Assembly (NCBI GenBank): GCA_021791345.1
Contig: JAJYWT010000099.1
Coordinates: 1-34,422, forward strand
Source of the DNA: a bacterium
Lineage (GTDB): Bacteria > Chloroflexota > Dormibacteria > UBA8260 > Bog-877
DNA: 34,422 bases
Direction of reading: 5' to 3'
Both the position numbers and the translations under genes were made by a program. Shown in pieces: positions 17,721 through 34,422 of the stretch. The notes below the pieces were generated by a model that was not told the origin of the DNA, did not search any database, and was given only the letters and a program-made list of their open reading frames with translations. How positions within the stretch are numbered: the first letter of the stretch is position 1; each line of letters starts with the position of its first letter.

Positions 17721-19667
17721 ATGATCAGACCGGGCACCCTTACCCTGCTGCGGACCGCGGCCGTGGCGCTGGCCGTGACCCTCTTGGTGGCCGCCTGTGG
17801 CGGGACCAGCGCCACCCCCAAGCCGACCAGTGGAGGCACCGTCACCTTCGCCGAATTGCCGGCGACGCCGCCGAATTACATCTTCCCGATGATGAGCGGG
17901 CCCTATTTCGCCAACGCCAACCTCTACCAGTTCTCCAACTTCATGTACCTGCCGCTCTACTGGTTCGGCGACGCGGGCAAGCCGGTCTTCAATCCCGGGC
18001 TCAGCATCGCCAACCCGCCCAAGTTCAGCGACAACAACCAGGTGGTGAGCATCACCATGAAGCACTGGCAGTGGTCGGACGGCACCCCTGTGACCGCCCG
18101 CGATGTCATCATGTGGCTCAATCTGCTGAGCGCGGTCACCGATCCCAAGGCGCCGTCGGTGGGCAGCAGCAGCGCTCCGGGGCCCGGATGGGGAGCGGCG
18201 GTTCCGGGGGCGTTTCCCCAGAACGTGGTGAGCTACACCCAGACCGGCACCTACAGCCTGTCGCTGCGGCTGAACGCCTCCTACAACCCCACCTGGTATC
18301 TCTACAACGAGCTGAGCCAGGTGTTCCCGCTTCCGCAGCAGGCCTGGGACAAGCTCTCGGCCGCCGGCACCGTGGGCAACTACGACCAGGCTGCCCAGGC
18401 CCGGGTGACGCTTCCCAACACCTCGCCCTCGTGGTACGTCCCGGCCGACCCGGGGACCGCCACCAGCGGGGCGCTGGGGGTCGCCCAGTTCCTCAACAGC
18501 CAATCGGAGGATCCCAGCACCTTTGCCACCAACCCCCTCTGGAAGGTGGTTGACGGGCCCTTCAAGCTGAGCCAGTTCACCACCACCGGCTTTGCCAAGT
18601 TCATCCCCAACCGGGCCTACTCGGGCAGCCCCAAGCCTCGCATCAGCGCCTTCGAGCTGGAGCCGTACACCAGCGACACCGCCGAGTTCAACGCGCTGCG
18701 CAGCGGGGCGCTCACGATCGGCTACATCCCGACCCAGGATCTCAGCCAGAAGGCCAGCCTGGAAAAGCAACAGGGTTACTCCTTCAGCCCCTGGTACGGG
18801 TTCGGGTTCGTGTACTTTCCGTACAACTACACCAATCCCACAGTCGGCCCCATCTTCAAGCAGCTGTACTTCCGGCAGGCGTTCCAGTCGCTGGTCAACC
18901 AGCCCGAGTACATCAAGGAATTCGACGGCGGCATCGGCCAGGTCGAGAACGGTCCGGTGCCGATCTACCCACCCCACAATCCCGACGAGAGCTCCCTGGA
19001 GGCCAACGGACAGGTGTATCCATACAGCCCCAGCAAGGCGGTGTCGCTGCTCAGGGACAACGGCTGGACCGTGGTTCCGGGAGGGGTCAGCTACTGCTCC
19101 AAGCCCGGGACTTCGACAGGCGAGTGCGGAGCCGGGATCAGCGCCAATGAGAAGCTGAACTTCACCCTCCTGTACGCAACCGGCAGTGTGGAGGCCGCCA
19201 ACGAGATGGCGGCCCTGCAGTCGACGGTGCAATCCAAGGCCGGCATCCACCTCACCCTGACCACCGCCCCCTTCTCCCAGGTGATCGGGACTGCCTTCAA
19301 CAACTGCACCATCGCCACCCCCTGCAAGGACTGGGAGATGGCGAACTGGCTGGGAGGCTGGACCTATTCGCCGGACTATCTCCCCACCGGAGGGGAGCTG
19401 TTCGCGACCGGCGGCGGGAGCAACGGCGGCGACTACTCGAACCCCACCAACGACGCCAACATCAGGGCGACCCACACCGCGCCGTCGGCGAGTGCGGAGA
19501 CCGCCGCCTTGATCCGCTATCAGAACTTCCTGGCGCGGCAGCTGCCGGCCGTCTGGCTGCCCGAGGTGCCCCTGCAGCTGACCATGTACAAGAGCAACCT
19601 CAAGGGCCTGGTTCCCCAGGACGTCTACGACATCATCTACCCGCAGGAGTACTACTTCTCCAGCTGA
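17721..19667 (+). CDS. Family-5 ABC solute-binding lipoprotein (second copy)
   Basis: A 648-residue extracytoplasmic binding protein of the SBP_bac_5 (peptide/nickel/opine) family. The leader ends in the lipobox LLVAAC with Cys at residue 26, so the mature protein should be lipid-anchored to the outer face of the membrane. A short Ser/Thr/Pro linker follows, then GGTVTFAELPATPPNYIFPMM and the ligand-binding lobes, including WSDGTPVTARDVIMWLNLL, the family signature region. Two conserved Cys pairs (SYC...GEC and NNC...TPC) suggest disulfides. AGGAGGTG at 17706-17713 lies 7 bases before the ATG and selects it over an upstream in-frame ATG at 17673. It is most similar to the broken copy upstream, so the two look like a recent tandem duplication. 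No permease or ATPase gene adjoins it; the ligand is unknown, with peptides the default guess. Confidence 0.92.
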   Translation: MIRPGTLTLLRTAAVALAVTLLVAACGGTSATPKPTSGGTVTFAELPATPPNYIFPMMSGPYFANANLYQFSNFMYLPLYWFGDAGKPVFNPGLSIANPPKFSDNNQVVSITMKHWQWSDGTPVTARDVIMWLNLLSAVTDPKAPSVGSSSAPGPGWGAAVPGAFPQNVVSYTQTGTYSLSLRLNASYNPTWYLYNELSQVFPLPQQAWDKLSAAGTVGNYDQAAQARVTLPNTSPSWYVPADPGTATSGALGVAQFLNSQSEDPSTFATNPLWKVVDGPFKLSQFTTTGFAKFIPNRAYSGSPKPRISAFELEPYTSDTAEFNALRSGALTIGYIPTQDLSQKASLEKQQGYSFSPWYGFGFVYFPYNYTNPTVGPIFKQLYFRQAFQSLVNQPEYIKEFDGGIGQVENGPVPIYPPHNPDESSLEANGQVYPYSPSKAVSLLRDNGWTVVPGGVSYCSKPGTSTGECGAGISANEKLNFTLLYATGSVEAANEMAALQSTVQSKAGIHLTLTTAPFSQVIGTAFNNCTIATPCKDWEMANWLGGWTYSPDYLPTGGELFATGGGSNGGDYSNPTNDANIRATHTAPSASAETAALIRYQNFLARQLPAVWLPEVPLQLTMYKSNLKGLVPQDVYDIIYPQEYYFSS

Positions 19668-20250: not shown

Positions 20251-22200
20251 ATGCGACTTCCGCGGACAGCAGCTACCTGGCGGCCAATTGCCCTGGCGGT
20301 TGTGGCCATGATCGGAGTCACCGCCTGTGCTGGCGGCACCACCCCGAGGCCATCGGCAAACGGTGGCGTGGTCACCATCGCCGAATCCCCAGGGGCTCCA
20401 CCCAACTACATCTTCCCGTTGATGTCGGGCAGCTATTTCGGCAACACCAATCTGTTCGGCTTCGACAACTTCATGTATCCGCCGCTGTATCAGTTCGATG
20501 TCTACGGCAAGCCCGGCTTCGACGAGGCGCTCAGCATCGCCAAACCGCCTGTGTTCTCGGATGGGAACCGCGTCGTGTCCATCACCTTGAAGCACTGGGC
20601 GTGGTCCAACGGGGCCCCACTCACAGCTCGCGACGTGATCTTCTGGCTCAACTTGCTGAGCGCGGCCACCGACCCCAAGGCGCCCTCGGTCGGGAGCACC
20701 TCGGCGCCGGGACCGGGATGGGGCAATGAGGTCCCAGGTCAGTTTCCCCAGAACGTTGTCAGCTATCGGCAGACCGGGACGTACTCGCTGCTGCTGAACC
20801 TGAATGGCTCGTACAACCCCACCTGGTTCTTGTACAACGAACTCAGCCAGATCACTCCCATGCCGCAGTCGGTATGGGACAAATTGTCAGCCCAAGGGAC
20901 GGTTGGCAACTACGACGCCTCGGCGCAACCCCGCGTCGCGCTCCCGGGGACTTCGCCGGGGTGGTACGTGCCCGCTGACCCGGGCACGGCCACCAGCGGT
21001 GCCCTCGGGGTGGCCCAGTTTCTGAACCTGCAGTCACAGGACCTCGCGTCCTATGCCACCAACCAACTGTGGAAGGTGGTGGACGGGCCCTTCGCCCTCA
21101 CTCAGTTCACCACCTCCGGGTTCGTCAAGTTCGTTCCCAACAAGAGCTACTCGGGGTATCCCAAGGCGACGATAGCGGCGCTCGAGGAGCTGCCATACAC
21201 CTCGGATTCTGCCGAGTTCAATTCCCTCGAGAACGGGGCGCTGACGGTCGGCTACCTGCCCACCCAGGACCTCGCTCAGAGAGCCGCCTTGGAAGCCAAG
21301 GACGGCTACAACTTCAGCCCGTGGTACAACTACGGCACCGGATTCTTTCCCTACAACTTCACCAATCAGCGGACCGGCCCCATGGTGGGCCAGCTCTACT
21401 TCCGCCAAGCCTTTCAGTCCCTGGTCAACCAGGGGCAGTGGATCAGAGACTTTCTAGGCGGCTATGGCTTCGTCGACAACGGACCCGTGCCGCTGTATCC
21501 ATCGGGAGATCCGTTCCTCTCTCCGCTGGAGGCTGGCAAGCCGCTGTACCCCTATGACCCCGCTCGCGCCGTGGCCCTGCTGCGAGCGCATGGTTGGGAC
21601 GTCGTGCCGGGTGGCACCAGTTCCTGCGTGCGCGCCGGCTCCGGCCCGGCCGACTGCGGGGCCGGCATCGCCAAGGGCCAATCTGCGAGCCTCACTCTCT
21701 ATTACGACTCGGGCGTGACCGCGCTCACCAATGAGATGGAGGCCCTGCAGTCAGTGACCCAGAAGGTGGCCGGGATCGACCTCACGCTGAAGCAGGTCAG
21801 CGTGGCGTCGCTCGCCAGCATCCTGTTCAATGGTTGCAGTCCGAAGACTCCCTGCAACACGTGGTCGATGGGGGTGTTCACCGCAGCGGGAGGCTATTCA
21901 TACTCTCCCGACTACCTTCCCACCGGCGGGCAGCTGTACGCGACCGGCGCCGGAACCAATCCCGGGGACTATTCGAATGCCACCGCAGACCGGCTGATCG
22001 CCGCCACCCACACGGCGCCCAACTACGCATCCGAGCTCCGTGACCTGTTTCAGTACGAGAACTTCATCAGTGAGAATCTGCCAATGGTCGAGCAGCCCGC
22101 GGGACTGGTGCAGCTGACCCTGTACAAGCGCAATCTCCACGGCCTGGTGCCGCAGGGGATTGGCAACCAGTTCTTCCCGCAGTTCTATCGTCTCGGGTAG
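20251..22200 (+). CDS. Family-5 ABC solute-binding lipoprotein (third copy)
   Basis: A 649-residue paralogue of the neighbouring binding proteins and the most divergent of the four. The signal peptide ends in the lipobox GVTAC with Cys at residue 26. The mature part starts GGVVTIAESPGAPPNYIFPLM and keeps the family regions (WSNGAPLTARDVIFWLNLL, NPTWFLYNELSQ, YSPDYLPTGGQLY). The Cys pairs are present as SSC...ADC and NGC...TPC. Its end differs (FFPQFYRLG instead of IIYPQxYY). The AAGGAG site at 20238-20243 lies 7 bases before the ATG. It has its own strong promoter and is followed, without a hairpin, by an Ntn hydrolase 52 bases on, so these probably form one operon with the SDR after it. Ligand unknown; the divergence suggests a different specificity from the other copies. 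Confidence 0.92.
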   Translation: MRLPRTAATWRPIALAVVAMIGVTACAGGTTPRPSANGGVVTIAESPGAPPNYIFPLMSGSYFGNTNLFGFDNFMYPPLYQFDVYGKPGFDEALSIAKPPVFSDGNRVVSITLKHWAWSNGAPLTARDVIFWLNLLSAATDPKAPSVGSTSAPGPGWGNEVPGQFPQNVVSYRQTGTYSLLLNLNGSYNPTWFLYNELSQITPMPQSVWDKLSAQGTVGNYDASAQPRVALPGTSPGWYVPADPGTATSGALGVAQFLNLQSQDLASYATNQLWKVVDGPFALTQFTTSGFVKFVPNKSYSGYPKATIAALEELPYTSDSAEFNSLENGALTVGYLPTQDLAQRAALEAKDGYNFSPWYNYGTGFFPYNFTNQRTGPMVGQLYFRQAFQSLVNQGQWIRDFLGGYGFVDNGPVPLYPSGDPFLSPLEAGKPLYPYDPARAVALLRAHGWDVVPGGTSSCVRAGSGPADCGAGIAKGQSASLTLYYDSGVTALTNEMEALQSVTQKVAGIDLTLKQVSVASLASILFNGCSPKTPCNTWSMGVFTAAGGYSYSPDYLPTGGQLYATGAGTNPGDYSNATADRLIAATHTAPNYASELRDLFQYENFISENLPMVEQPAGLVQLTLYKRNLHGLVPQGIGNQFFPQFYRLG

Positions 22201-22252: not shown

Positions 22253-23170
22253 ATGCTCTTGATTGCTAGCGCGAACGGATCGGTCGGGATGGAAGCCGGA
22301 TGGGAGATCCTGAGCTCTGGGGGCACCGCCCTCGACGCGGTCGAGGCGGCCGCCCGGGAGGTCGAGGACAACCCCGACGACCATTCGGTCGGCTTCGACG
22401 GGTACCCGAACCTCTTGGGGGTCGTGGAGTTGGACGCATCCTTGATGGACGGCGCCACCCGCCGCGCCGGCACGGTCGGCGCGGTCCGCGGCTACCGTCA
22501 TCCGATCTCGATCGCCCGGGCAGTGCTGGATCGGCTGCCGCACGTGATGGTGGTGGGAGAGGGGGCCGAGAGGCTGGCTGCGGAGCTGGGCATGGAGCCG
22601 GAGGACCTCCTCACCGAGGAGACCCGCCAGGTCTGGCGCGACGGGATGGAGGGACATCTCGCGCCCGGCGACTCCCGGCGGCGGCTCCTGGACCGGATCT
22701 CCAGCCTGTTCGCGGATCCCGAGCACGTGGCCGGGACGGTCAACTTCCTCGCCATCGACCGCTCCGGCCATATCGCGTCGGCGGTCAGCACCAGCGGCTG
22801 GGCCTGGAAGTACCCCGGCCGGCTGGGGGACTCTCCGGTGATAGGCGCGGGGAACTACTGCGACGACCGCTACGGCGCCGCCGCCTGCACCGGTTGGGGA
22901 GAACTGGCGATCCGGGGGGCGACCGCCCACACCGTGGTGAGCGGGCTGGCCTTCGGGCTCGGGGTCGAGGAGGCGGCCGACAAGGCGATCCGGGAGCTGA
23001 GGGGGCTGGACGTGCCCGGTGGCGACCCGATCATGAACCTGGTCGCGCTCGACGCCAGGGGCCGCCACGTGGGCCTCTCGACCCAGCCGGGCAACAGCTA
23101 TGTCGCCTGGGAGGAGGGTGAGTCCTCCTATGCCACGCTGCCGCGCCGAGTGGTGCCTCTTGGTGATTGA
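22253..23170 (+). CDS. Aspartylglucosaminidase/isoaspartyl-peptidase-like Ntn hydrolase
   Basis: A 305-residue asparaginase_2-family enzyme of the self-cleaving N-terminal-nucleophile type. It resembles N4-(beta-N-acetylglucosaminyl)-L-asparaginases, which cut the sugar-asparagine amide bond; related enzymes cleave isoaspartyl dipeptides. Visible signatures are GGTALDAVEAA, SVGFDGYPNLLGVVELDASL, PISIARAVLDRLPHVMVVGEGAE, the cleavage site before Thr162 in GTVNFLAID, the later KYPGRLGDSPVIGAG block with its Arg and Asp for substrate carboxylate binding, and CTGWGE. There is no signal peptide, so it acts in the cytoplasm. GGAGA lies 8 bases before the chosen ATG. Being directly behind a binding protein suggests it processes what that protein helps import. 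Glycoasparagine versus isoaspartyl substrate cannot be decided here. Confidence 0.88.
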   Translation: MLLIASANGSVGMEAGWEILSSGGTALDAVEAAAREVEDNPDDHSVGFDGYPNLLGVVELDASLMDGATRRAGTVGAVRGYRHPISIARAVLDRLPHVMVVGEGAERLAAELGMEPEDLLTEETRQVWRDGMEGHLAPGDSRRRLLDRISSLFADPEHVAGTVNFLAIDRSGHIASAVSTSGWAWKYPGRLGDSPVIGAGNYCDDRYGAAACTGWGELAIRGATAHTVVSGLAFGLGVEEAADKAIRELRGLDVPGGDPIMNLVALDARGRHVGLSTQPGNSYVAWEEGESSYATLPRRVVPLGD

Positions 23171-23224: not shown

Positions 23225-23983
23225 ATGAGCGATCCCGCAGCGCCGTCCCTGCCCGGCGCGCGCCGGGTGGCCGTGGTCACGGGAGCCGGCGGAGGGATCG
23301 GCGCCGCCGTCGCCGGGCGGCTCGCCGCTGACGGCTTCCGGGTTGCGGGAGTGGATCTGGATCTCGACTCGGCCAGGGCGGCTCTCACAGGACTTGCCGG
23401 GGCCACCGCCTTCCACTGTGACGTGTCCAACGCCGAGTCGGTGTCCCGTCTGGGTCAGGCGGTGGCCCAGACTCTGGGGATCCCCTGGTTGGTGGTGAAC
23501 GCCGCTGGGGTGTTCTTCACCCACCACGTGCCCGAGCTGAGCGAGGAGGCGTGGGACGAGACGATCGACGTCAACCTCAAGGGTCCGTTCCTCATCTGCC
23601 GGCAATTCCTTCCCGCAATGATCGCCGCCGGCAGCGGATGCGTCGTCAACGTGGCCTCGACCGCGGGACTGCGAGGCGGCCACGACCGCGCCGCCTACTG
23701 CGCCTCCAAGGCCGGCCTGGTGATGCTGACCCGTTCTCTGGCGCTCGACCACGGGCGCGACGGGATCAGGATCAACTGCGTGTGCCCGGGGCTTATCGAC
23801 ACCCCGATGGCGGACTGGATCACCTCCCGCCCGGAGGCTCTGGAGAGTTGGCGCCGTTCGGTTCCCGCGCAGCGGATCGGGAAGCCAGACGACATCGCCG
23901 CGATGGTGTCATTCCTCGCCTCTCCGCAGGCCGACTACGTGCACGGGGCGGTCCTGCTCGTGGACGGGGGCGTGAGCGCCTGA
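23225..23983 (+). CDS. Short-chain dehydrogenase/reductase
   Basis: A 252-residue classical SDR. The NAD(P)-binding motif TGAGGGIG is at residues 19-26, preceded by VAVV; an acidic residue after the second strand (GVDLDLD) favours NAD over NADP. NAAG follows mid-protein, then the catalytic Ser in VASTAG and the YxxxK pair Y158 and K162 (YCASK). The C-terminal DGGVSA is the usual end of the family. The substrate is not predictable; 3-ketoacyl-ACP-reductase-like and sugar or alcohol dehydrogenases all share these features. It lies 54 bases after the Ntn hydrolase, and a small stem (CTCCC with GGGAG, 24021-24047) follows it. The start ATG has only a weak ribosome binding site. Confidence 0.88.
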   Translation: MSDPAAPSLPGARRVAVVTGAGGGIGAAVAGRLAADGFRVAGVDLDLDSARAALTGLAGATAFHCDVSNAESVSRLGQAVAQTLGIPWLVVNAAGVFFTHHVPELSEEAWDETIDVNLKGPFLICRQFLPAMIAAGSGCVVNVASTAGLRGGHDRAAYCASKAGLVMLTRSLALDHGRDGIRINCVCPGLIDTPMADWITSRPEALESWRRSVPAQRIGKPDDIAAMVSFLASPQADYVHGAVLLVDGGVSA

Positions 23984-24282: not shown

Positions 24283-26232
24283 ATGAAGGGAAAGTTCGTG
24301 AAATCGACTTGGCGGCCCCTGGCGGTGGCCGCGGCTGCGAGCATGCTGCTGGCAGCTTGCTCCAGCACGTCCCCCACCTCCCATCACTCGGGGGGTGGCG
24401 TCGTCACCTACGCGGAGCAGGTGGGTGCGCCTCCGAACTACATCTTCCCGCTGCTCCCCGGAGCCTACGAGTCCAATGCCAACCTGTACCAGTTCGCGAA
24501 CCAGCAGTACCTGCCGCTGTACTGGTTCGGCGACCACGGCAAGCCTCTGTTCAATCCGCAGCTCAGTGTTGCCAAGCCGCCGGTGTTCTCCGACAACAAC
24601 ACCGTGGTCTCGATCACCTTGAAGCACTGGGAGTGGTCCAACGGCGCACCGATCACGGCCGCCGACGTCATCTTCTGGATGAACCTGGTGAGCGCTGCGA
24701 CCGACCCCAATGCCCCCACCGTCACCGGCGCCAATGGAGCGGCCGGACCGGGCTGGGGCGGATTCGTTCCCGGCGGGTTCCCGGAGAACATCGTGAGCTA
24801 CCAGCAGACCGGGACCTACACCCTGACGATGACGCTGAACCACTCGTACAACCCGACCTGGTACCTGTACAACGAGTTGAGCCAGGTGTACCCGATGCCC
24901 AAGACGGTTTGGGACAAGCTCTCCACCTCAGGATCCGTGGGCAACTACGACGCCTCCGCCGCGGCCCGGGAACCGCTTCCCGGCACCTCGCCGGTCGAGT
25001 ACGTCCCGCGTGACCCCGGGACGGCCACCTCTGGGGCTTTGGGGGTCGCCCAGTATCTGAACAGTCAGTCCCAGCAGCTGACCACCTACGCCACCAACCC
25101 GCTGTGGCAGGTGGTGGATGGCCCCTTCCGGATGAGCCAGTTCACGACCAGCGGCTACGTCAAGCTGGTCCCGAACCGAGCGTACTCCGGATCACCCAAG
25201 CCCACGATCTCGGCCTTTGAGGAGCTCCCCTTCACCAGCGAGTCGAGCGAGTTCGACGCGCTGCGCTCGGGGTCGCTCACGATCGGGTACATCCCGGTCC
25301 AGGATCTCGGCCAGCTGCATTCGTTGGAGAAGCAGCAGGGCTACAGCTTCTCGCCCTGGCGTGGGTACGGGTTCGACTACATCCCCTTCAACTTCACCAA
25401 CCAGACGGCGGGCCCGATCTTCGACCAGCTTTACTTCCGCCAGGCGATGCAGTCGCTGGTGAACCAGCCGGCCTACGTCAAGGATTTCCAGGCCGGTTAC
25501 GGGTCGATCGACAACGGCCCGGTGCCCACCTATCCCCCCAACCCGTTCGCGAGCCCCCTGGAGAAGCACGGCCAGGTGTATCCCTACGATCCCACCAAGG
25601 CGGTGCGCCTGCTCAGCAGCCACGGCTGGAAGGTGGAGCCCGGGGGCACCAGCTACTGCGAGCACCCGGGGTCGGGAACCGGCGAGTGCGGTTCCGGGAT
25701 CGCGGCGGGGCAGCAGGCGAACTTCAAGCTGCTGTACTCGAGCGGCACACCCGAGCTGACCAACGAGATGGAGGCGCTGCAGTCGACCCTCAAGGCCAAG
25801 GCAGGGATCTCGCTGGCCCTCTCCCAGGAGTCCACGGCTGATGTCGCCTCCACCATCCAGGACGGCTGCAGCCAGGCCAAGCCGTGCAACGACTGGGATC
25901 TCGCCGACGTGGCGCTCAGCTTCACCTGGACCTATGGTCCCGATTTCCTGCCCACCGGAGAGGAGCTGTTCGTGTCCGGGGCGGTGGACGACTCCGGAGG
26001 GTACTCGTCCCCTGTGAATGACGCCAACGTGGCCGCGACCAACACCGCTCCCAACAGCGCCGCCGAGATCTCCGCCCTGTACCGCTACCAGGACTACCTG
26101 GCGAAGCAGCTGCCAGTCCTGTACATGCCCCTGGGCAACATCCAGCTCACCATGTACAAGAGCGACCTGCGCGGTCTGGTGCCGCAGGATCCCTTCGACA
26201 TCATCTACCCGCAGCAGTACTCGCTGGGGTGA
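24283..26232 (+). CDS. Family-5 ABC solute-binding lipoprotein (fourth copy)
   Basis: A 649-residue SBP_bac_5 lipoprotein. The basic N-terminus (MKGKFVK) and hydrophobic core lead to the lipobox LLAAC with Cys at residue 26, followed by a Ser/Thr/His linker. The mature part begins GGVVTYAEQVGAPPNYIFPLL and keeps YLPLYWFGDHGKPLFNPQLS, WSNGAPITAADVIFWMNLV, NPTWYLYNELSQVYP and DPGTATSGALGVAQYLN. Cys pairs SYC...GEC and DGC...KPC are conserved. It is separated from the third copy by two enzyme genes, which suggests each binding protein is tied to its own downstream enzymes. It is followed by a 160-base gap with hairpins and then an amidohydrolase. No transport channel genes are present in the window, so it must share a permease encoded elsewhere or serve as a capture protein only. 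Confidence 0.92.
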   Translation: MKGKFVKSTWRPLAVAAAASMLLAACSSTSPTSHHSGGGVVTYAEQVGAPPNYIFPLLPGAYESNANLYQFANQQYLPLYWFGDHGKPLFNPQLSVAKPPVFSDNNTVVSITLKHWEWSNGAPITAADVIFWMNLVSAATDPNAPTVTGANGAAGPGWGGFVPGGFPENIVSYQQTGTYTLTMTLNHSYNPTWYLYNELSQVYPMPKTVWDKLSTSGSVGNYDASAAAREPLPGTSPVEYVPRDPGTATSGALGVAQYLNSQSQQLTTYATNPLWQVVDGPFRMSQFTTSGYVKLVPNRAYSGSPKPTISAFEELPFTSESSEFDALRSGSLTIGYIPVQDLGQLHSLEKQQGYSFSPWRGYGFDYIPFNFTNQTAGPIFDQLYFRQAMQSLVNQPAYVKDFQAGYGSIDNGPVPTYPPNPFASPLEKHGQVYPYDPTKAVRLLSSHGWKVEPGGTSYCEHPGSGTGECGSGIAAGQQANFKLLYSSGTPELTNEMEALQSTLKAKAGISLALSQESTADVASTIQDGCSQAKPCNDWDLADVALSFTWTYGPDFLPTGEELFVSGAVDDSGGYSSPVNDANVAATNTAPNSAAEISALYRYQDYLAKQLPVLYMPLGNIQLTMYKSDLRGLVPQDPFDIIYPQQYSLG

Positions 26233-26392: not shown

Positions 26393-27652
26393 GTGGTGGC
26401 CGTGGTGACAGCCGGTCGGAAGCCCGCCGACAGCCAGGTGCGCGGCCCCGACCGCCCCTGGGCGGTAAGGGCTCGGCGGGTGCTTGACGCTTCCGCCTCC
26501 ACCTGGCTCGAGGGGGTGGTTGTCATCTGCCAGGGGGATCGGATCCTGGAGGTGACGCGGTCAGCGCCGACCGGTGTTCCCGTGTCCGACTTGGGCGAGA
26601 GGAGCCTGCTCCCCGGGCTGATCGACACCCACACCCACATCTTTCTTCAGGGGAATCACGATCAGCAGGAGTACGCGACCCAGATCCTGGCTGAGGACCC
26701 GGCCCACCGGGTGGCGCGTGCGGTGCGCGCGCTGGGAATCGCCCTCCGGCACGGCTTCACCACCTTGCGTGATCTGGGGACCGAGGGAGCCGGCTTCGGG
26801 GATGTGGCTCTCCGGGCTGCGGTCGAGGAGGGGGTTGTGGCCGGGCCGCGACTGCAGGCGGCGGGCCCGGCGATCGGCGCCACGCACGCCTATCCAATCT
26901 CGAACTACCGTGACGACTGGAGCTTCCCGGTCGGGGTCGCCGAGTGCGATGGTGCCGAGGGGTGCCGACGCGAGGTGCGCCGGCAGATCGCTCGCGGTGT
27001 TGACTGGATCAAGGTGTACGCGACCGCCGGCAGTCGGATGGGGCTCGACCCCGCCGGGTATCCGGACTCGCCTCCACCGTGGACCCAGGTTGAGCTGAAC
27101 ACCATTGTGGAGACCGCCCACGAGCAGGGGGTGCGGGTCGCGGCCCACGCCATGGCCGCCACGGGCACCGACATGGCGGTCGCGGCGGGGGTCGACTCCG
27201 TCGAGCATGGCAATGCGATCCGGCCCGAGACCGCCGAAGCGATGGCCGAGCGCGGGATCTATCTGGTGCCCACGCTGCTGGCGCTGCGGGAGCAACCCCG
27301 GACCTCGTTCGAAAACTGCCGGCGCGCCGGGGTGCGGGTCGCCCTTGGCACCGACGTCGGTGCCTTCTACTGGGATGAGCACAACCAGGCGCGCGAGCTC
27401 GAGCTGCTGGTGGGCTTGGGCCTGACCCCGGCCGAGGCGGTCCGGAGCGCCACCGTGGTCGCGGCGGAGATGCTGGGGCTCAGCGGGGAGGTCGGCGAGA
27501 TCGGGCCGGGGAGGTGCGCCGACCTCATCGCATGCCCGGGCGATCCACTCTCGGACGTCGCCCTTCTGCAGCAGGTCGATGTGGTGATCCGTGCCGGCCG
27601 GTTGGTGACCACCGTCGACCGTCAGCCATCGGGGCCGGTGGCGGTCGGGTGA
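26393..27652 (+). CDS. Metal-dependent amidohydrolase, imidazolonepropionase/prolidase-like
   Basis: A 419-residue amidohydrolase-superfamily enzyme. After a small beta domain, GLIDTHTHI supplies the first metal ligands H80 and H82. The probable bridging Lys is K207 in DWIKVYATAG, followed by H252 in AAHAMA, H272 in VEHGN and the catalytic Asp D321 in GTDVGAF. The late GEIGPGRCADLIACPGDPL is typical of the group. Relatives in this subgroup hydrolyse Xaa-Pro, Xaa-Arg or Xaa-Lys dipeptides or acyl amides, which would suit the peptide-type binding protein upstream; the exact substrate is unknown. GGGGAG at 26381-26386 precedes the GTG start. No signal peptide is seen, so it is cytoplasmic. The first 20 residues are not conserved-looking, and a later GTG start is possible. 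Confidence 0.85.
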   Translation: MVAVVTAGRKPADSQVRGPDRPWAVRARRVLDASASTWLEGVVVICQGDRILEVTRSAPTGVPVSDLGERSLLPGLIDTHTHIFLQGNHDQQEYATQILAEDPAHRVARAVRALGIALRHGFTTLRDLGTEGAGFGDVALRAAVEEGVVAGPRLQAAGPAIGATHAYPISNYRDDWSFPVGVAECDGAEGCRREVRRQIARGVDWIKVYATAGSRMGLDPAGYPDSPPPWTQVELNTIVETAHEQGVRVAAHAMAATGTDMAVAAGVDSVEHGNAIRPETAEAMAERGIYLVPTLLALREQPRTSFENCRRAGVRVALGTDVGAFYWDEHNQARELELLVGLGLTPAEAVRSATVVAAEMLGLSGEVGEIGPGRCADLIACPGDPLSDVALLQQVDVVIRAGRLVTTVDRQPSGPVAVG

Positions 27653-27863
27653 GGGGTCCGCGCTCGCACCGGGTTGCGGCGGAGCGGCTGCAAGCCTGCC
27701 TGGTCGATGCAGGTCGGGCCCGGCATGGGCGCCGCTTCCGCACGATCCCGACCCTGCCGCCGGATGTCGTCCGCCCCGGTGATCAGGGATGAAGCAGCGA
27801 GGAACCGAAGTGGGGGCTCAGCGCTCATGCCCGCGGCCAGGGTGGGCCAGCAGACCCGAGTCG

Positions 27864-27877: not shown

Positions 27878-30034
27878 TTGCAGTTGACAATCATCGGCGC
27901 CGGTGCGATCGGTGGGACCATCGGTGCGCACATGCTGCGCGCGGGTCACGAGATCCTCTTCTGTGACAGCGATGTGGAGCATGTGAACGCCATCAACTCC
28001 CACGGCCTCACGATCGAGGGACCGGTCGTCAACTTCACGGTGCCGGCGCGGGCGGTGACTCCCCAGGACCTGCCCGCGCAGCTTCACCATGTGGCGATCG
28101 CCGTCAAGAGCCAGCACACGGCCTCGGCCGCCGAGCTCCTCAGAGGCAGGCTCGCCGCCGATGGCTACGTGGTCAGCTTCCAGAACGGTTTGAACAATGA
28201 GGTGTTGGTCGCCGTGGTGGGCGAGGACTCGGTCATCCTGAGCTTTGTGAACTTCGGCGCCGACCTGATCGCCCCGGGCCGGATCATGCAGGGCAACATC
28301 GGCACCTTCCGGGTGGGTGAGCTGCCCGGTCGGGGCATCACCCCGAGGGTCCGGGAGCTGGTGGCCGCGCTGCCCTACGCCCAGGCCACGGACAACATCC
28401 TCGGCTACCTCTGGGGCAAGGAGGCATACGGGGCGATGCTCTTCGCCGGGGCGGTCTCGGACCTCTCCATCGCGGACTCACTGGAGCAACCGGAGTGGCG
28501 GCCGCTGATGCTGGCGGTGGCCCGGGAGGTGCTGGCCCAGGCGCCGGTGACGCCGGAGGGCTTCGACGGCTTCGAGCCCGGCGACCTGGAGGGGTCGCTC
28601 CCGCGCCTGGCGGAGTTCAATCGCCAGAGCGCCAAGTCCCACAGCGGGATCTACCGCGACCTGGTGGTGCGCCATCGCCCCACCGAGGTGGATGGACAGC
28701 TTGGTGCGCTGCGGGGGCCGCTCACCCAACACACCACAGCGCTCATCCACGCGATCGAGCGGGGTGAGCGGTCCTGCGAGGTTCCCAATCTGAAGTTGCT
28801 GGCGGCGCTGGAGCGGGCCGAGCGCCTGGGTCGGCCGCTGCAGGCGGTGGTGCGCCTGGTTTCCGCGCCCCGGCGGGCGCCCGGGGGCCCGCTCCTGGGC
28901 CACCCGGTGGCGGTCAAGGACATCTTCAGCGTCGCCGGGCTGCCCCGCGGCAATGGCAATCCCAGCGCGATGGCCGGTCCGGCGGAGCCTGAGGATGCCG
29001 CCGTGGTTGCCCAGCTGCGCACTCTGGGCGCCGACGTCTTCTGCACGACCGCGATGTTGGAGTACGCCGCGGGGGCGACCCACCCGCAGGTCCCTGAGAC
29101 CCTGAACCCGTACGACCTGACCAGAACCGCGGGGGGCTCCAGCGGGGGCTCCGCGGCGGTGGTGGCGGCGGGCGTCTGCGATCTCGCGCTCGGCACCGAC
29201 ACCGGTGGGTCGGTGCGCATTCCCGCCTCGTATTGCGGGGTGGTCGGGCTCAAGCCGTCACATCTGGCGCTGAGCTCGACCGGGGTCCAGCCGCTGGCGC
29301 CGTCGCTGGACGACGTCGGCATCCTGGCGCGGGATGTCCCGGCCGCCGAGTTCCTGTTCGCGGCTCTCCGGCCCGGGCCGGCGGCGGCCCGCAAGCAGCG
29401 GCTGCGGATCGGGTACTTCGAGAGCGGTATGGCCGAGGTGCACCTCGACCCCGAGGTGGATGCCGTGGTCTCCGGTGCTCTGCGTGCTCTGGCCAATGCC
29501 GGCTGTGACCTGGTCGCGATCCCTGCTCACCCGTTCCGCGAGCTGGGATCCCTCTTCGATGACATATTCCTCTTCGAGGCGGGGCGGGTTCACGCCCAGC
29601 GGGTGCTTTCCGATCCGGCGCACTACGGGCCTGAGACCCTGCGCCTGCTCCGGGCGGCCGTCGGCGCCGAGGAGCGCGTTCACGGGCTGGCCCTGGCTGC
29701 TCGGGAGCGGCTCCTGCCGGCGGCGGCGGCGGAGCTGGGCAAGGTCGATGTGCTGCTGACACCCGCAGTCCCGTTCGTCGCCCCTGCCACCACACCGCCG
29801 GTCGACACGCCGGAGGGGCGCGACGAGGGCGCCTTCACCGGCGTCTTCAACGTGATCGGAGCCCCAGCGCTGGTGCTTCCCGGCGGCTGGTCTGAGGCGG
29901 GGCTGCCGATCGGCCTACAGCTGGTCGCCGGCTTTGGCTCGGACCGCCAACTCCTGGCCGACGCCCACTTGGTGGAACGTATGCTGGAAGTCCCCCGTCG
30001 TGAGCCCGTGGCAGTCTCAGGAGCCGATGCATGA
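27878..30034 (+). CDS. Ketopantoate-reductase-like dehydrogenase fused to amidase
   Basis: A 718-residue two-enzyme fusion. Residues about 1-310 form a 2-dehydropantoate-2-reductase (ApbA/PanE) family unit: the dinucleotide motif GAGAIGG at residues 7-13, AIAVKSQHT, the QNGLNNE loop, the catalytic Lys K181 in GKEAYGAMLFAG, and RPTEVDGQLGAL for the C-terminal helical domain. Residues about 335-710 form an amidase-signature hydrolase with the Lys-Ser-Ser triad region: K347 in VAVKDIF, GGSSGGS at 419-425 and the nucleophile S445 in TDTGGSVRIPAS. The amidase has a shortened N-terminal helix region, partly replaced by the reductase. Both active sites look complete. The join is within one uninterrupted frame with even codon use, so a frameshift artefact is unlikely. 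A longer start (ATG 27827) is possible. The stop overlaps the dehydrogenase gene that follows. The likely role is hydrolysis of an amide coupled to reduction or oxidation of a keto or hydroxy acid; the substrate is unknown. Confidence 0.85.
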   Translation: MQLTIIGAGAIGGTIGAHMLRAGHEILFCDSDVEHVNAINSHGLTIEGPVVNFTVPARAVTPQDLPAQLHHVAIAVKSQHTASAAELLRGRLAADGYVVSFQNGLNNEVLVAVVGEDSVILSFVNFGADLIAPGRIMQGNIGTFRVGELPGRGITPRVRELVAALPYAQATDNILGYLWGKEAYGAMLFAGAVSDLSIADSLEQPEWRPLMLAVAREVLAQAPVTPEGFDGFEPGDLEGSLPRLAEFNRQSAKSHSGIYRDLVVRHRPTEVDGQLGALRGPLTQHTTALIHAIERGERSCEVPNLKLLAALERAERLGRPLQAVVRLVSAPRRAPGGPLLGHPVAVKDIFSVAGLPRGNGNPSAMAGPAEPEDAAVVAQLRTLGADVFCTTAMLEYAAGATHPQVPETLNPYDLTRTAGGSSGGSAAVVAAGVCDLALGTDTGGSVRIPASYCGVVGLKPSHLALSSTGVQPLAPSLDDVGILARDVPAAEFLFAALRPGPAAARKQRLRIGYFESGMAEVHLDPEVDAVVSGALRALANAGCDLVAIPAHPFRELGSLFDDIFLFEAGRVHAQRVLSDPAHYGPETLRLLRAAVGAEERVHGLALAARERLLPAAAAELGKVDVLLTPAVPFVAPATTPPVDTPEGRDEGAFTGVFNVIGAPALVLPGGWSEAGLPIGLQLVAGFGSDRQLLADAHLVERMLEVPRREPVAVSGADA

Positions 30035-31074
30035 AAGCTGCGATCTACCGAGGTGCCGGACAGGTCACGGTGGAGGAGGTCCCCGATCCCAGGCTGGTCG
30101 AGCCCACCGACGCCGTGGTCCGCGTGTTGCGTTCGTGTGTCTGCGGGTCGGACCTGTGGGCCTACCGGGGAGTCATCCAGCGCGCCGTGCCGGCACGGCT
30201 CGGCCATGAGTTCCTGGGGCTGGTCGAGGAGGTGGGGTCTCAGGTCTCCACGATCTCGGTCGGAGATCTGGTGGTGGCACCCTTTCAGTGGAGCGACAAC
30301 ACCTGCCCAGCCTGCCGCGACGGAATCCAGACATCCTGCGTGAACGGGGGCACCTTCGGGGCGCCCGGCACCGACGGGGGGCAGGGGGAGGCGGTCCGGG
30401 TTCCCCAGGCCGACGGGACCCTGGTCGCGGTCCCGGGCGGCCTGTCGCCGACCACAGAGGGGCTGCTGCCGGCGCTACTGGCGGCGACCGACGTGGCGGC
30501 CACCGGCCTGCATGGCGCGGTCCTGGCTGACACCGCGCCGGGCTCGACCGTGGTCGTCATCGGTGACGGAGCGGTGGGGTTGTGTGCGGTGCTCGGCGCG
30601 CGCTCGATCCTGGGTGCCGAGCGGGTGATCCTGATGAGTCGCAACCCCACCCGGCAGGCTGTCGGGCGCTCCTTCGGGGCCACCGAGGTGATCGCGGAGC
30701 GCGGCCCGGAGGCGGTGAGCCTGGTCCGGGATCTGACCCAGGGGCTGGGCGCCCGGCACGTGGTCGAGGCCGTGGGGACTCCGGAGTCCTGGGAGATGGC
30801 GGTAGGGATGGCCCGAGAGGGCGGCACCATCGGAGCGGTGGGCGTACCCCACACCACCCCCTCCTTGCCTCTTTTCGATCTGTTCCGCCACCACCTCCGG
30901 GTCCACGCGGGAGTGGCACCGGTGCGGCACTACCTGCCCGACCTGATCGCGAGGATTGTCGAGGGCGGCTACGATCCCAGCCCGGTGTTCGACATGTCAC
31001 TGCCGCTGGCAGAGGTCGCCGAGGCCTATCGGGCGATGTCCGAGCGGCGGGCGATCAAGGTGATGCTCACGTGA
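30031..31074 (+). CDS. Zinc-dependent medium-chain alcohol dehydrogenase
   Basis: A 347-residue MDR-family dehydrogenase whose ATG overlaps the fusion gene's stop. Catalytic zinc ligands are C38 in CGSD and H59-E60 in GHEFLG. The structural zinc loop has three of four Cys (C92, C95, C103), with Asp (D89) in the first position, as in some subfamilies with the DNTCPxC pattern. The cofactor site is VVVIGDGAVGLCAVLGA in the Rossmann domain. FGAxxGxGxGGE-type residues appear as FGAPGTDGGQGEAVRVP, which fits the subfamily. It likely oxidises a secondary or primary alcohol with NAD(P). It is coupled to the M19 gene by a GTGA overlap. Confidence 0.92.
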   Translation: MKAAIYRGAGQVTVEEVPDPRLVEPTDAVVRVLRSCVCGSDLWAYRGVIQRAVPARLGHEFLGLVEEVGSQVSTISVGDLVVAPFQWSDNTCPACRDGIQTSCVNGGTFGAPGTDGGQGEAVRVPQADGTLVAVPGGLSPTTEGLLPALLAATDVAATGLHGAVLADTAPGSTVVVIGDGAVGLCAVLGARSILGAERVILMSRNPTRQAVGRSFGATEVIAERGPEAVSLVRDLTQGLGARHVVEAVGTPESWEMAVGMAREGGTIGAVGVPHTTPSLPLFDLFRHHLRVHAGVAPVRHYLPDLIARIVEGGYDPSPVFDMSLPLAEVAEAYRAMSERRAIKVMLT

Positions 31075-32321
31075 GCCAGGAGGGGCCTGCGGCGCGGGAC
31101 CGGGCGCGCAAGGCGGCGGCCTACAGGGGCTATCGCTCCTACCAGTACCTAGAGCCCGGGGTGGACTACCGGGAGTTCGACCTGGCGGAGGAGCTCGACC
31201 GGGTGCCCTCCGCCGGGGTGGCGACCACGCCCGAGCAGGAGCAGCGGGTGCAGCGTCTGCTGGAGGAGGGCCCGATCATCTCCCTGCACGACCACCCCTC
31301 GGTCATGCCCAAGGACATCGACCAACTCTTCGAGTACCGCCGTCACGGGCGCGACTTCACCGGCTATCTGGGGCTCAGCCGCTCCGGCCTCGACGCCGTG
31401 TTCGACAACCTCGCGGACGGGGAGGGGCAGATCACGTCTTTGTCGGGCTGGAAGTGGGAGGACACCCTGGTGGATCTGGGCATGCGCCTCTGCGACATCG
31501 CCCACCAGGACTACGTCACCGTGATCCACCGCCTGGCCGACCTCGACCGTGCCCGTGAAAACGGGCAGCTGGGGTTGGTGCTGGCGATCGAATCGGCCGC
31601 GCCGATCGAGAACGAGCTCGACCGTCTGGACATCCTCTATGGCTTCGGGATCCGCTCCATCGGCGTCACCTACAGCGAGGCGAATCTGCTGGGCAGCGGC
31701 CTCGGCGAGCGGTCGGACGCGGGGCTGACCGCATTCGGCCGTCGCGCGGTGCGGCGGATGAACCAGCTGGGGATCCTGATCGACTGCTCCCACGCCGGTG
31801 ATCGCACGACCCTGGACACGATCAATGCCAGCTCCCAACCGGTCTCGATATCCCACGCCGGTGCTCGCGCGCTCTGGCCCACCGCCAGGATGAAGCCCGA
31901 CGATGTGATCCGCGCCTGCGCCGAGTCGGGCGGGGTCATCGGCATCGAGGCCGCGCCCCACACCACCCTCACCAGAGAGCATCCCCGGCACTCGATCGAC
32001 AGCTACATGGCCCACTTCGAATACTGCTGTGAGCTGGTGGGGCTGGAGCACGTCGGCTTCGGTCCGGACACCCTCTTCGGCGACCACGTCGGCCTCCACC
32101 GGGTGATGGCGGAGCGTTTCGGCCAGCAGCTGCCCCCATCTTCCCTGCCCATCGAGCGGGTCCCCTACGTTGATGGGCTGGAGAGCCCCGCGGAGACCCT
32201 CCCCAACATCGTGCGCTGGCTGGTGGTGCACGGCTACAGCGATCCGGACATTCACCTAGCGGCGGGCGGCAACGTCCTCAGAATGCTGGAGGAGGCGTGG
32301 CGGCCGGGTGAGGGTGGCTGA
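31071..32321 (+). CDS. Membrane-dipeptidase-like (M19) metallohydrolase
   Basis: A 416-residue peptidase M19 family protein starting at a GTG that overlaps the dehydrogenase stop. Family members cleave dipeptides, including those with a D-residue at the end, at a two-metal site. The usual HxD motif (GHNDxP) appears as LHDHP with H73-D74-H75, so the Asp ligand position holds His. Other ligand regions are present: LAIESA with its bridging Glu, DCSHAG, SISHAGARAL and GFGPDTLFG. A longer N-terminal extension of about 65 residues precedes the barrel. No signal peptide, so cytoplasmic. The changed ligand may alter the metal or the reaction. Its place after an amidase fusion suits breakdown of a peptide-like compound. 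Confidence 0.83.
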   Translation: MSQEGPAARDRARKAAAYRGYRSYQYLEPGVDYREFDLAEELDRVPSAGVATTPEQEQRVQRLLEEGPIISLHDHPSVMPKDIDQLFEYRRHGRDFTGYLGLSRSGLDAVFDNLADGEGQITSLSGWKWEDTLVDLGMRLCDIAHQDYVTVIHRLADLDRARENGQLGLVLAIESAAPIENELDRLDILYGFGIRSIGVTYSEANLLGSGLGERSDAGLTAFGRRAVRRMNQLGILIDCSHAGDRTTLDTINASSQPVSISHAGARALWPTARMKPDDVIRACAESGGVIGIEAAPHTTLTREHPRHSIDSYMAHFEYCCELVGLEHVGFGPDTLFGDHVGLHRVMAERFGQQLPPSSLPIERVPYVDGLESPAETLPNIVRWLVVHGYSDPDIHLAAGGNVLRMLEEAWRPGEGG

Positions 32322-32967
32322 GCCAGCTGCAGCTGAGAGGGTGGGATGGTACCGGCCGCCGACGGGGCCCGTGCCCGATTTCGCACGCCTGAGCCGGGAC
32401 ACCATCGAGCGACTGGCCCGGATCACGTCGGTTACCAGCGAAGTGAGCGACATCCTCGACGGCATGGGATTCGTCACGGCCGTCGATGCCGGTGCCGTCC
32501 TCCATCGTCTGGGTCCGCAGACCCTGGTCGGGCACGCCCTGACGCTGGCCTATCTGCCGGAGCAGGATTCATCCGGTTCCCCGGCGGGTCGCCTGGCTCA
32601 CCACACCGCCGCTGCGATGGCCGTGCACGCCGACGTGCTGGTGGTGTCGTCTCCGCCCCGGCAAGACTGGTCGGTCCTCGGGGGCGACGGGGCCAGGGCG
32701 CTGGCCGCCGCGGGCGTGAGCGGCGCGATCGTGGACGGGGGAATCCGCGACCTGGACGAGCTGGTCGGCTCGGGGCTTGCGGTCTGGTCGCGAGCCTTCG
32801 GTCCGCGGCGGGGGGTGGGCCGGCTGGAGGCCTCCGCGATCAACTCGCCGATCTGCTGCGGTGGAGTCCAGGTACGGCCCGGGGATCTGGTGGTCGCAGA
32901 CGTCTCGGGGGTTGTATTTATCCCCGTCGCCGCGGTTTCGAAGGTGGTGGCGCAGCTGCTCGGATGA
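32308..32967 (+). CDS. RraA-like aldolase/decarboxylase
   Basis: A 219-residue member of the RraA/4-hydroxy-4-methyl-2-oxoglutarate-aldolase family, overlapping the M19 gene by 14 bases. The family core GAIVDGGIRDLDEL carries the Arg-Asp pair that binds the keto-acid and metal, and the C-terminal GGVQVRPGDLVVADVSGVVFIP is typical. Enzymes of this family split pyruvate from 4-hydroxy-2-oxo acids or decarboxylate oxaloacetate; bacterial RraA itself regulates RNase E but is shorter. In this operon an aldolase role on a keto-acid intermediate is more likely. GGAGGAGG at 32288-32295 is 12 bases before the GTG; a GTG six bases later is also possible. Confidence 0.87.
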   Translation: MRVAEPAAAERVGWYRPPTGPVPDFARLSRDTIERLARITSVTSEVSDILDGMGFVTAVDAGAVLHRLGPQTLVGHALTLAYLPEQDSSGSPAGRLAHHTAAAMAVHADVLVVSSPPRQDWSVLGGDGARALAAAGVSGAIVDGGIRDLDELVGSGLAVWSRAFGPRRGVGRLEASAINSPICCGGVQVRPGDLVVADVSGVVFIPVAAVSKVVAQLLG

Positions 32968-33052: not shown

Positions 33053-33117
33053 CCTGGGCCGGGGTGAGCGGCGGGCGACGGGACACGGCCTTAATTCAAT
33101 AGATGGGAGGGCGCACA

Positions 33118-33816
33118 GTGAGTGTGGATGAGCCCAAGGTGGCGGTGGTGACCGGGGTCGCCCACGGCATCGGAGCCGCGATCGCGGCCGGGCTGAGCGC
33201 CGACGGGATGGTGGTCCATGGCATCGACAAAGATCAGGTCGACGTCACCGACTCCGCCCAGGTCGCTCGGTTCTTCCGATCGCTCCCCAGGGTCGACGTC
33301 CTCGTGAACAACGCCGGTGGCGTCTGTGGGCAGACCTTCGCCCCCCTGGAGGAGATCACGGACGAGCAGTGGCATGCGGTGGTCGACGCGAATCTGACGG
33401 GCGCCTTTCACTGCACCCGGGCGGTGGTGCCCGGGATGAAGCTGAGAGGCTGGGGACGGATCGTCAACATCTCCTCCGGAGCGGGCCGGAGCATCAGCCT
33501 GACGGGGATCCAGGCCTACGCCTCGGCCAAGGCGGGGCAGATCGGCTTCACCCGCCAGATGGCGCACGAGTTGGGGCGCTTCGGAATCACGGTCAACTGC
33601 ATCGCCCCGGGCTTCATCCTTTCGAATCCCACCAGCCAGGCGCAGTGGGACAGCTACGGAGAGCAGGGCCAGGCCCGAGTGCTCGAGGGTATCGCGGTCG
33701 GGCACCTGGGCAGGGCCGAGGACATCGCCCATGGAGTTCGCTTCTTCTGCGCCGAGGAGTCCTCCTGGATTACCGGCCAGACGCTCTCGATCGATGGCGG
33801 CAGTGCTCTCTTTTAG
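33118..33816 (+). CDS. Short-chain dehydrogenase/reductase (second)
   Basis: A 232-residue SDR. GGGAGG at 33105-33110, 7 bases before the GTG at 33118, chooses this start over the in-frame ATG at 33103. TGVAHGIG is at residues 12-19; NNAGG follows; then a Ser in NISSGAG and the catalytic Y134 and K138 in YASAK. IDGGSALF ends the protein. The segment between the second strand and the fourth is shorter than usual (GIDKDQVDVTDSAQV), so the cofactor pocket may be trimmed. The Asp after the second strand favours NAD. It overlaps the M20 gene by 23 bases. Its substrate is unknown; with the RraA protein and alcohol dehydrogenase it could act on hydroxy- or keto-acid products. Confidence 0.9.
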   Translation: MSVDEPKVAVVTGVAHGIGAAIAAGLSADGMVVHGIDKDQVDVTDSAQVARFFRSLPRVDVLVNNAGGVCGQTFAPLEEITDEQWHAVVDANLTGAFHCTRAVVPGMKLRGWGRIVNISSGAGRSISLTGIQAYASAKAGQIGFTRQMAHELGRFGITVNCIAPGFILSNPTSQAQWDSYGEQGQARVLEGIAVGHLGRAEDIAHGVRFFCAEESSWITGQTLSIDGGSALF

Positions 33817-34422
33817 CTCCGACCCCCAGGCCTACCTGCCCGAGCTCGCCGAGTATGTGGCGATCCCCAGCGTGAGCCGGGACGCGGATCCAAAGACCAT
33901 GAGGCAGGCCGCGGAGTGGCTGGCGTCCCAGCTGGCTGCGGTCAACGGGAGGGTGGAGGCTGGCACCGGACATCCGGTGGTGGTGGGGGAGTGGCTGGAG
34001 CGGTCGTCGGCACCGACCGTGCTCATCTATGGCCACTACGACGTCCAGCCCACCGGCGATCTCCGAGAGTGGCTGTCGCCGCCGTTTGCACTCACCAGGG
34101 AGGGCGAGGTGGTGCGCGGCCGCGGCGTCTCCGATGACAAGGGGCCGGTCTACATGGTCCTCAAGGTGGTGCAGGCCTTCCTGGAGCAGGAGGGTCGGTT
34201 GCCCCTCAACGTCCGTTTCCTGATCGAGGGGGAGGAGGAGATCGGGAGCCCCAACCTGGCGGAGTTCGTCCGGGACCGGGCCGGGGATCTCCGCGCCTCC
34301 CTGGTGGTCTCCGCGGACGGCGCGATGTGGCGGCCCAACGAGCCATCGATCTCCTTGGGGTCCAAGGGGCTGGTCGGCCTCACCGTGGAGGTGACGGGGG
34401 CCACCGAGGACCTGCACTCGGG
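33794..34422 (+). CDS. M20-family metallopeptidase (5' part, runs off the window)
   Basis: The frame is open from the ATG at 33794 to the window end, about 209 residues, and overlaps the end of the SDR by 23 bases; a GTG at 33803 is an alternative start. It matches the dipeptidase branch of M20 (CNDP/ArgE/DapE-like). LIYGHYDVQP supplies zinc ligand H81 and D83; GRGVSDDKGP supplies the bridging Asp D115; EGEEEIGS (from about residue 145) supplies the catalytic and metal Glu pair. LGSKGLVGLTVEV begins the lid domain, and the visible part ends at LHSG. The missing C-terminus should hold the last zinc ligand. It likely cleaves dipeptides or acyl-amino acids in the cytoplasm, adding a further peptide hydrolase to this region. 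Confidence 0.9.
   Translation, partial: MAAVLSFSSDPQAYLPELAEYVAIPSVSRDADPKTMRQAAEWLASQLAAVNGRVEAGTGHPVVVGEWLERSSAPTVLIYGHYDVQPTGDLREWLSPPFALTREGEVVRGRGVSDDKGPVYMVLKVVQAFLEQEGRLPLNVRFLIEGEEEIGSPNLAEFVRDRAGDLRASLVVSADGAMWRPNEPSISLGSKGLVGLTVEVTGATEDLHS

Follow-up and report, generated by a model that had tools for sequence, protein, structure and literature searches.

A natural fusion of a PanE/ApbA-type dehydrogenase with an amidase-signature hydrolase is encoded in a 34,422-nucleotide stretch of DNA (contig JAJYWT010000099.1 of assembly GCA_021791345.1, class Dormibacteria; the whole stretch is referred to as the window). The gene is one open frame of 718 amino acids (aa) and a stop codon, with the dehydrogenase first and the amidase second (Table 1). 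An earlier note on this DNA had described such an uninterrupted frame, and the frame itself, the Pfam domains and the PanE-like fold of the first half all agree with that description. The TTG start at 27878 agrees with the MQLTIIGAG start of the relatives, and GGAAAGGGG ends six bases ahead of it; the frame is still open upstream, up to a TTG at 27674. The third-position GC content across the gene was 0.83-0.95. A protein of 735 aa (P0002), 99% identical over 100% of the query, comes from a 3901-base contig, which makes an assembly frameshift unlikely; taken together, the single open frame, the even third-position GC, this copy and the full-length relatives ruled out a frameshift or a chimera.

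The dehydrogenase half was recognised in Pfam by PF02558 (ApbA) at residues 4-150 with 94.6 bits (cut-off 22.2), and PF08546 (ApbA_C) at residues 188-278 scored 20.9 bits, just below its cut-off of 22.7. The structure search with the model of the whole fusion was filled by amidases and hence a separate model of the PanE half was made and searched; residue 1 to about residue 299 then aligned with the solved PanE-family structures, the PF08546 region included as a PanE-like fold. The catalytic Lys, the Glu and the Asn of the QNG motif have established roles in the PanE/ApbA family; here K181 and N103 align with solved members of the family and E270 aligns with 8wl1 and 3hwr. The Asn four residues past the catalytic Lys is not kept, with G185 in its place (Gly in 65 of the 68 ungapped rows and Gln in 3). 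The score against TIGR00745 (2-dehydropantoate 2-reductase, EC 1.1.1.169) was 118.2 bits, below the curated cut-off of 141.35, and the identity to D-mandelate and NAD-dependent D-2-hydroxyacid dehydrogenases of the PanE/ApbA family (5x20, 3wfj, 8wl1) was 21-24%. The end of strand 2 is acidic, as for the NAD-type D-2-hydroxyacid dehydrogenases, and an acidic end of this strand points to NAD rather than NADPH. The fold and the strand-2-end residue fit a putative NAD-dependent D-2-hydroxyacid dehydrogenase.

The amidase half spans about residues 298-704, as malonamidase E2 aligns with the model from residue 298/299 to residue 704, and was matched by PF01425 (Amidase) at residues 333-693 with 237 bits (cut-off 27). 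Among the amidase-signature hydrolases, the fusion is nearest to malonamidase E2 (1obj, 1ocl) and 2dc0. The Lys-cisSer-Ser triad K347, S421 and S445 is present, each residue being found in 65 of 65 ungapped rows. K181, K347, the GGSSGGS motif and S445 lie where the earlier note had placed them and are invariant in 23 aligned sequences (that of the window and those of 22 relatives, which share 62-80% identity with it). In malonamidase E2 the Arg three residues past the nucleophile (R158 and S155, respectively, as named in the titles of structure entries) presumably has a role of its own; by spacing, its position is occupied here by I448, with an Arg at 447. The two halves are joined through one helix of residues 302-321, which is the last of the dehydrogenase and the first of the amidase in the AlphaFold2 model (predicted local distance difference test, pLDDT, 94.6; predicted template modelling score, pTM, 0.92). 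In contrast to D-mandelate dehydrogenase, the C-terminal helix of the dehydrogenase runs into the amidase, and in contrast to malonamidase E2, the N-terminal amidase helix is shared with the dehydrogenase. Residues 285-345 are gap-free in all 23 aligned sequences.

The fusion is a real, conserved architecture built from two known families. A search of 5.8 billion proteins gave 6746 homologues among 7996 scored candidates, which ruled out a fusion unique to the window, and among the matches listed, PF02558 and PF01425 are both present in 120 of 120 homologues (704-735 aa). All eight catalytic-site residues tested, four of the dehydrogenase (N103, K181, S256 and E270, kept in 135 of 144) and four of the amidase, were kept together in 135 of the 144 fetched proteins longer than 600 aa, that of the window included. 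Genome contigs were scanned by using two peptide patterns, both within the PanE half, so that standalone amidases and decayed fusions are under-sampled; a relative was encoded in 198 of the 323 matched stretches. For the fetched loci, genes and starts were called by a purpose-made codon-score caller. The best 80 of these 198 loci comprised 44 fused ones and 36 with an unfused PanE. A split at the junction in all relatives, the outcome that the earlier note had regarded as decisive against a fusion, was thus ruled out, and separate genes also occur.

By record title, the fused loci belong to Actinomycetota or Candidatus Dormiibacterota, except for one 'Acidobacteria' (L045) and one 'Spirochaetaceae' (L032). 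A spread to these two groups was not relied on, since the L032 genome falls in the class of the actinobacterium G017, and its title may be wrong. The Dormiibacterota loci L001 and L004 are the rows nearest to the window in both the PanE and the amidase trees. The fusion family is not common: within the order of Planotetraspora (G031), Streptosporangiales, 14 of 200 genomes carry the fusion, and in the class to which G017 belongs a match was obtained for 9 of 394 genomes, 6 of these being fused, in long-query searches that scored few candidates per genome (5 and 2, respectively).

In the window, the genes from the Asparaginase_2 hydrolase through the M20 peptidase, the fusion included, all lie on the same strand, and the junctions of the fusion with the Zn-dependent alcohol dehydrogenase (Zn-ADH) gene and of the latter with the M19 gene are 4-base overlaps. 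The earlier note had placed the fusion at the head of a tight catabolic operon with these two genes and the RraA-like one. The downstream genes and the conserved fusion in a tight, catabolic-looking operon were recovered; the fusion need not head the operon, because four same-strand genes (Asparaginase_2, short-chain dehydrogenase (SDR), solute-binding protein and amidohydrolase) lie upstream. The RraA-like gene as a member of a shared pathway was ruled out, as its protein had no match in the 118 fetched loci by tblastn (E value 1e-6). In the same 118 loci, the window amidohydrolase had weak matches only (L017, L038 and L079, 30-31% identity). The Asparaginase_2 protein of the window is closest to glycosylasparaginase (163.5 bits). 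No called gene of the window falls in the importer permease clusters. The window holds four SBP_bac_5 solute-binding proteins in a stretch of about 10 kb (16057-17409, 17721-19667, 20422-22200 and 24283-26232).

Table 1. Features of the fusion gene and its neighbours in the window
Feature	Position	Strand	Remarks
PanE/ApbA-type dehydrogenase-amidase fusion	27878..30034	+	718 aa, TTG start
Dehydrogenase half, residues 1-318	27878..28831	+	GxGxxG, D30, N103, K181, S256, E270
Shared junction helix, residues 302-321	28781..28840	+	AlphaFold2 model; malonamidase E2 alignment
Amidase core, residues 329-704	28862..29989	+	K347, S421/S422, S445
Asparaginase_2 N-terminal nucleophile (Ntn) hydrolase, glycosylasparaginase-like	22253..23170	+	Thr162 matches the first residue of solved beta chains
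Short-chain dehydrogenase	23225..23983	+	
Oligopeptide-type solute-binding protein (SBP_bac_5)	24283..26232	+	
Amidohydrolase	26393..27652	+	PF01979; best NCBIfam NF051886 Xaa-Pro dipeptidase, below cut-off
Zn-dependent alcohol dehydrogenase	30031..31074	+	In 17/44 fused loci, a gene of this family directly follows the fusion
M19 (membrane dipeptidase family) hydrolase	31071..32321	+	
RraA-like aldolase family protein	32308..32967	+	Window only, among loci fetched
Short-chain dehydrogenase	33103..33816	+	
M20 peptidase, cut by window end	33794..34420	+	PF01546, 71.4 bits

The loci of the relatives, fused and unfused alike, hold an oligopeptide-type ATP-binding cassette (ABC) importer (oligo_HPY ATPase, BPD_transp_1 permeases, SBP_bac_5), an M55 D-aminopeptidase and an Asparaginase_2 hydrolase, with M19 and M20 peptidases, DUF885, creatininase-like, AspA-like and alpha/beta hydrolases, SDR and Zn-ADH as variable members. 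Permease cluster 4, Asparaginase_2, M55, Zn-ADH and methylaspartate ammonia-lyase (MAL; the METHYLASPARTATE link) were found in 24, 26, 25, 17 and 21 of the 44 fused loci, many of them cut by contig ends, and in 24, 29, 26, 20 and 15 of the 36 unfused loci, respectively. This wider locus points to peptides with unusual residues.

The MAL copy of one unfused locus (L052) passes TIGR01502 with 550 bits against 286, and MAL was counted only at 299 bits or more. In the 200-genome order set, a strong match (337 bits or more) was found in 13 of the 14 fusion genomes, on the same contig and 4.6-8.1 kb from the fusion, and a match of 299-300 bits in 2 of the 186 non-fusion genomes (Fisher 1.6e-17; 3 of 186 and 9e-17 when the broken match of G055 is counted); these p-values overstate independence, because the genomes are related. 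The MAL Pfam family as such was above its cut-off in 65 of the 200 genomes, mostly at 27-34 bits, and also matched 11 of 14 control genomes. Of 13 genomes tested, 12 have a class III CoA-transferase resembling the MAL-side one; in ten it adjoins MAL or is no more than about 1.2 kb away, and in two the distance is 12-16 kb. In the flanks of L106, L108 and L112, a hydratase scores best against RipB/Ich (206, 214 and 153 bits; cut-off 340) and a lyase against RipC/Ccl (156, 147 and 172 bits; cut-off 375); in the flank of L107 a hydratase-like gene is present and a lyase-like gene was not seen. In combination, MAL, CoA-transferase, hydratase and lyase could convert 3-methylaspartate to acetyl-CoA and pyruvate, with mesaconate and then its CoA ester as intermediates, the reactions behind this route being described in PMC5592240 and PMC12290011. 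Altogether, MAL was found in 33 of 49 genomes examined. No MAL was seen in the window.

Glutamate mutase E was above its cut-off in just 2 of 38 locus genomes, one of them marginal (27.4 against 26.6 bits); in the control, Haloferax volcanii alone gave a match, below the cut-off. Glutamate mutase is the usual source of methylaspartate.

The two halves were also found apart. In 30 unfused-PanE genomes, a close amidase (E value 5.4e-106 or better; next match 3.0e-53) was found in 11, standalone in 8 and as a fusion in 3 (G003, G009, G019); MAL was found in all 11 of these and in 8 of the 19 without a close amidase (p 0.0016). The pairing of standalone amidase and PanE is partly a matter of selection, because the 30 genomes were picked for holding PanE. 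In the importer operon of G005, G016 and G018, the standalone amidase has the solute-binding protein on one side and the first permease on the other; it shares a contig with the unfused PanE in G012, G016, G017 and G018, at a distance of about 9 to 16 kb, and lies on a different contig in G005, G007, G008 and G014. In 31 other fusion genomes, the fusion was the sole close PanE (next best E value 5.6e-56, G050). In the amidase tree the standalone forms stand among the fused ones, with open forks, so the number of separations is not fixed; many forks are likewise open in the PanE tree, which takes 3 changes of the fused label, of which the starred branches force 2. Standalone amidases of Geodermatophilaceae were compared with P0018 and with the window for a remnant of the PanE C-terminus, and L088 scored 77 and 63 (best of 200 shuffles 49 and 42) and L089 scored 76 and 61 (51 and 53), respectively; at least these two amidases were once fused, as the clear remnant indicates. 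L090 was marginal, with 52 and 46 (49 and 48), and no remnant was found in the other four tested (L091, L108, L112, L114).

Three side observations concern separate forms. L116 and L117 (genome sizes 1.3 and 1.5 Mb) have a standalone amidase, 43% identical, next to the solute-binding protein in an importer locus of the same type, and neither a close PanE nor MAL was found in these genomes. Beside the fusion locus of an Amycolatopsis metagenome-assembled genome (L038:13676-21868), a second operon-like row holds a separate amidase (476 aa, PF01425), a distant PanE (344 aa), importer genes and an amidohydrolase (PF01979), as a second pairing of the two families. The Chloroflexota PanE relatives L077, L079 and L080 (50% or less identical) adjoin SDR genes, and two of the three also a creatininase-family gene; a close amidase and MAL were looked for in these genomes and none was found.

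From the conserved sites and the gene neighbourhood, the favoured reading, held tentatively and at somewhat less than even confidence, is that of a conserved bifunctional catabolic enzyme, whose predicted substrate would be the amide of either a D-2-hydroxy acid or a 2-oxo acid. Material would be brought into the cell by the oligopeptide-type importer and trimmed by the Asparaginase_2 hydrolase, the D-aminopeptidase and other peptidases. The amidase half would hydrolyse the amide bond via the triad K347, S421 and S445, and the PanE-fold half, like an NAD-dependent D-mandelate-type dehydrogenase, would interconvert 2-hydroxy and 2-oxo acid, either freed or still amide-bound; further oxidations would be done by the neighbouring Zn-ADH and SDRs. 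The cofactor, the direction and order of the steps, the substrate class and the use of one molecule by both halves are all putative here, and the two steps need not be consecutive, because each half also occurs without the other. A more specific proposal is doubtful: the locus would be an undescribed pathway degrading peptides with D-, iso-linked and 3-methylaspartyl residues, methylaspartate arising without glutamate mutase and leading via mesaconate to acetyl-CoA and pyruvate, and the fusion would remove and oxidise a 2-hydroxy- or 2-oxo-acyl group passed between its two joined sites. Microcystin- and nodularin-type cyanobacterial peptides or acidic lipopeptides would fit by make-up as such peptides; for microcystin as a substrate, which is an idea only, the literature search gave no support.

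Several points weigh against a bifunctional catabolic enzyme of this kind. Nine of the 144 fusions (P0122, P0124, P0125, P0126, P0131, P0133, P0134, P0148 and P0150, 683-701 aa) have lost K181, N103 and S256 with the amidase residues intact; four of the nine form one clade in the amidase tree, and the decayed dehydrogenase half is likely a pseudo-enzyme. A close amidase was not found in 19 of the 30 unfused-PanE genomes, and two amidase-only genomes (G496, G589) lack a close PanE. A fixed single pathway in particular is disfavoured, MAL having been missed in the window's Dormiibacterota kin (G051-G053) and in G250 and G252, as also in G496, G589 and the fused G183. Where solved ketopantoate reductases and the D-mandelate dehydrogenase 8wl1 have two Asn following the Lys, the fusion has, as read by eye, G185 and F189, and therefore those Asn contacts are kept for neither of these activities. 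Furthermore, any large hydrolase cluster can mimic a pathway.

The nine decayed fusions would suit an alternative in which only the amidase matters in the present pathway and the PanE half is a decaying scaffold or a sensor, as would the standalone amidases among the fused ones in the tree, two (a third marginal) with the PanE remnant, and the two amidase-only genomes; against it, the four dehydrogenase residues are kept in the other 135 proteins and the unfused PanE is itself retained in the same kind of locus, so that this alternative is considered unlikely. Also rather unlikely is a fusion for co-expression only, by which both halves would serve one locus and act on unrelated molecules. Each half does occur alone, surrounded by the same importer, M55 and Asparaginase_2 genes, but the one-helix junction, in a confident model and without gaps across the aligned sequences, is more intimate than co-expression needs.

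Two alternatives start from the PanE family match. In pantothenate catabolism, the amidase would be a pantothenase and the PanE half would oxidise pantoate to ketopantoate; an amide of a 2-hydroxy acid would fit chemically, and an RraA-like aldolase is encoded downstream in the window. This is improbable, as neither Asn of the solved ketopantoate reductases is retained, the RraA-like gene has no counterpart in the fetched loci, and the scheme has no place for the D-aminopeptidase, Asparaginase_2 and M19/M20 genes or, in many relatives, for MAL. The fusion could instead be the biosynthetic ketopantoate reductase of the cell with an added amidase, for which the PF02558 match, the PanE-family fold and the lack of another close PanE in the 31 fusion genomes searched would speak; this is highly improbable, given that the fusion occurs in just 14 of 200 genomes of the order and 6 of 394 of the class, that importer and hydrolase genes are its neighbours, and that the acidic strand-2 end suggests NAD rather than NADPH on general grounds.

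As for known systems, the methylaspartate cycle of haloarchaea (PMC5592240) handles 3-methylaspartate and mesaconate by means of a methylaspartate ammonia-lyase, a hydratase and a CoA-transferase of class III, all of which it has in common with the present locus. It differs in that the fusion-locus genomes are nearly devoid of glutamate mutase E, and in that the hydratase and lyase here score nearest to RipB/Ich and RipC/Ccl, respectively, and lie beside peptide import and hydrolases. The itaconate/methylsuccinate degradation cluster (PMC12290011) shares the families of CoA-transferase, hydratase and citramalyl-CoA lyase, whereas the locus proteins are all below the NCBIfam equivalog cut-offs and entry would be via the ammonia-lyase.

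A literature search by title found no description of the fusion, or of the locus and its methylaspartate link, and the papers examined that mention both names proved unrelated. Most database names refer to just one of the halves (2-dehydropantoate 2-reductase or amidase family protein), and a few name both. A shared function is indicated by the fusion together with its separate relatives and decayed copies, and the linked MAL gives a way to test for a seemingly unrecognised catabolic route. The carriers include genomes of 1.3-1.6 Mb, in which the keeping of a large catabolic locus suggests a worthwhile substrate. Elsewhere in the window, at 14488-15360, a luciferase-like monooxygenase (PF00296) adjoins an unassigned 199-aa frame.
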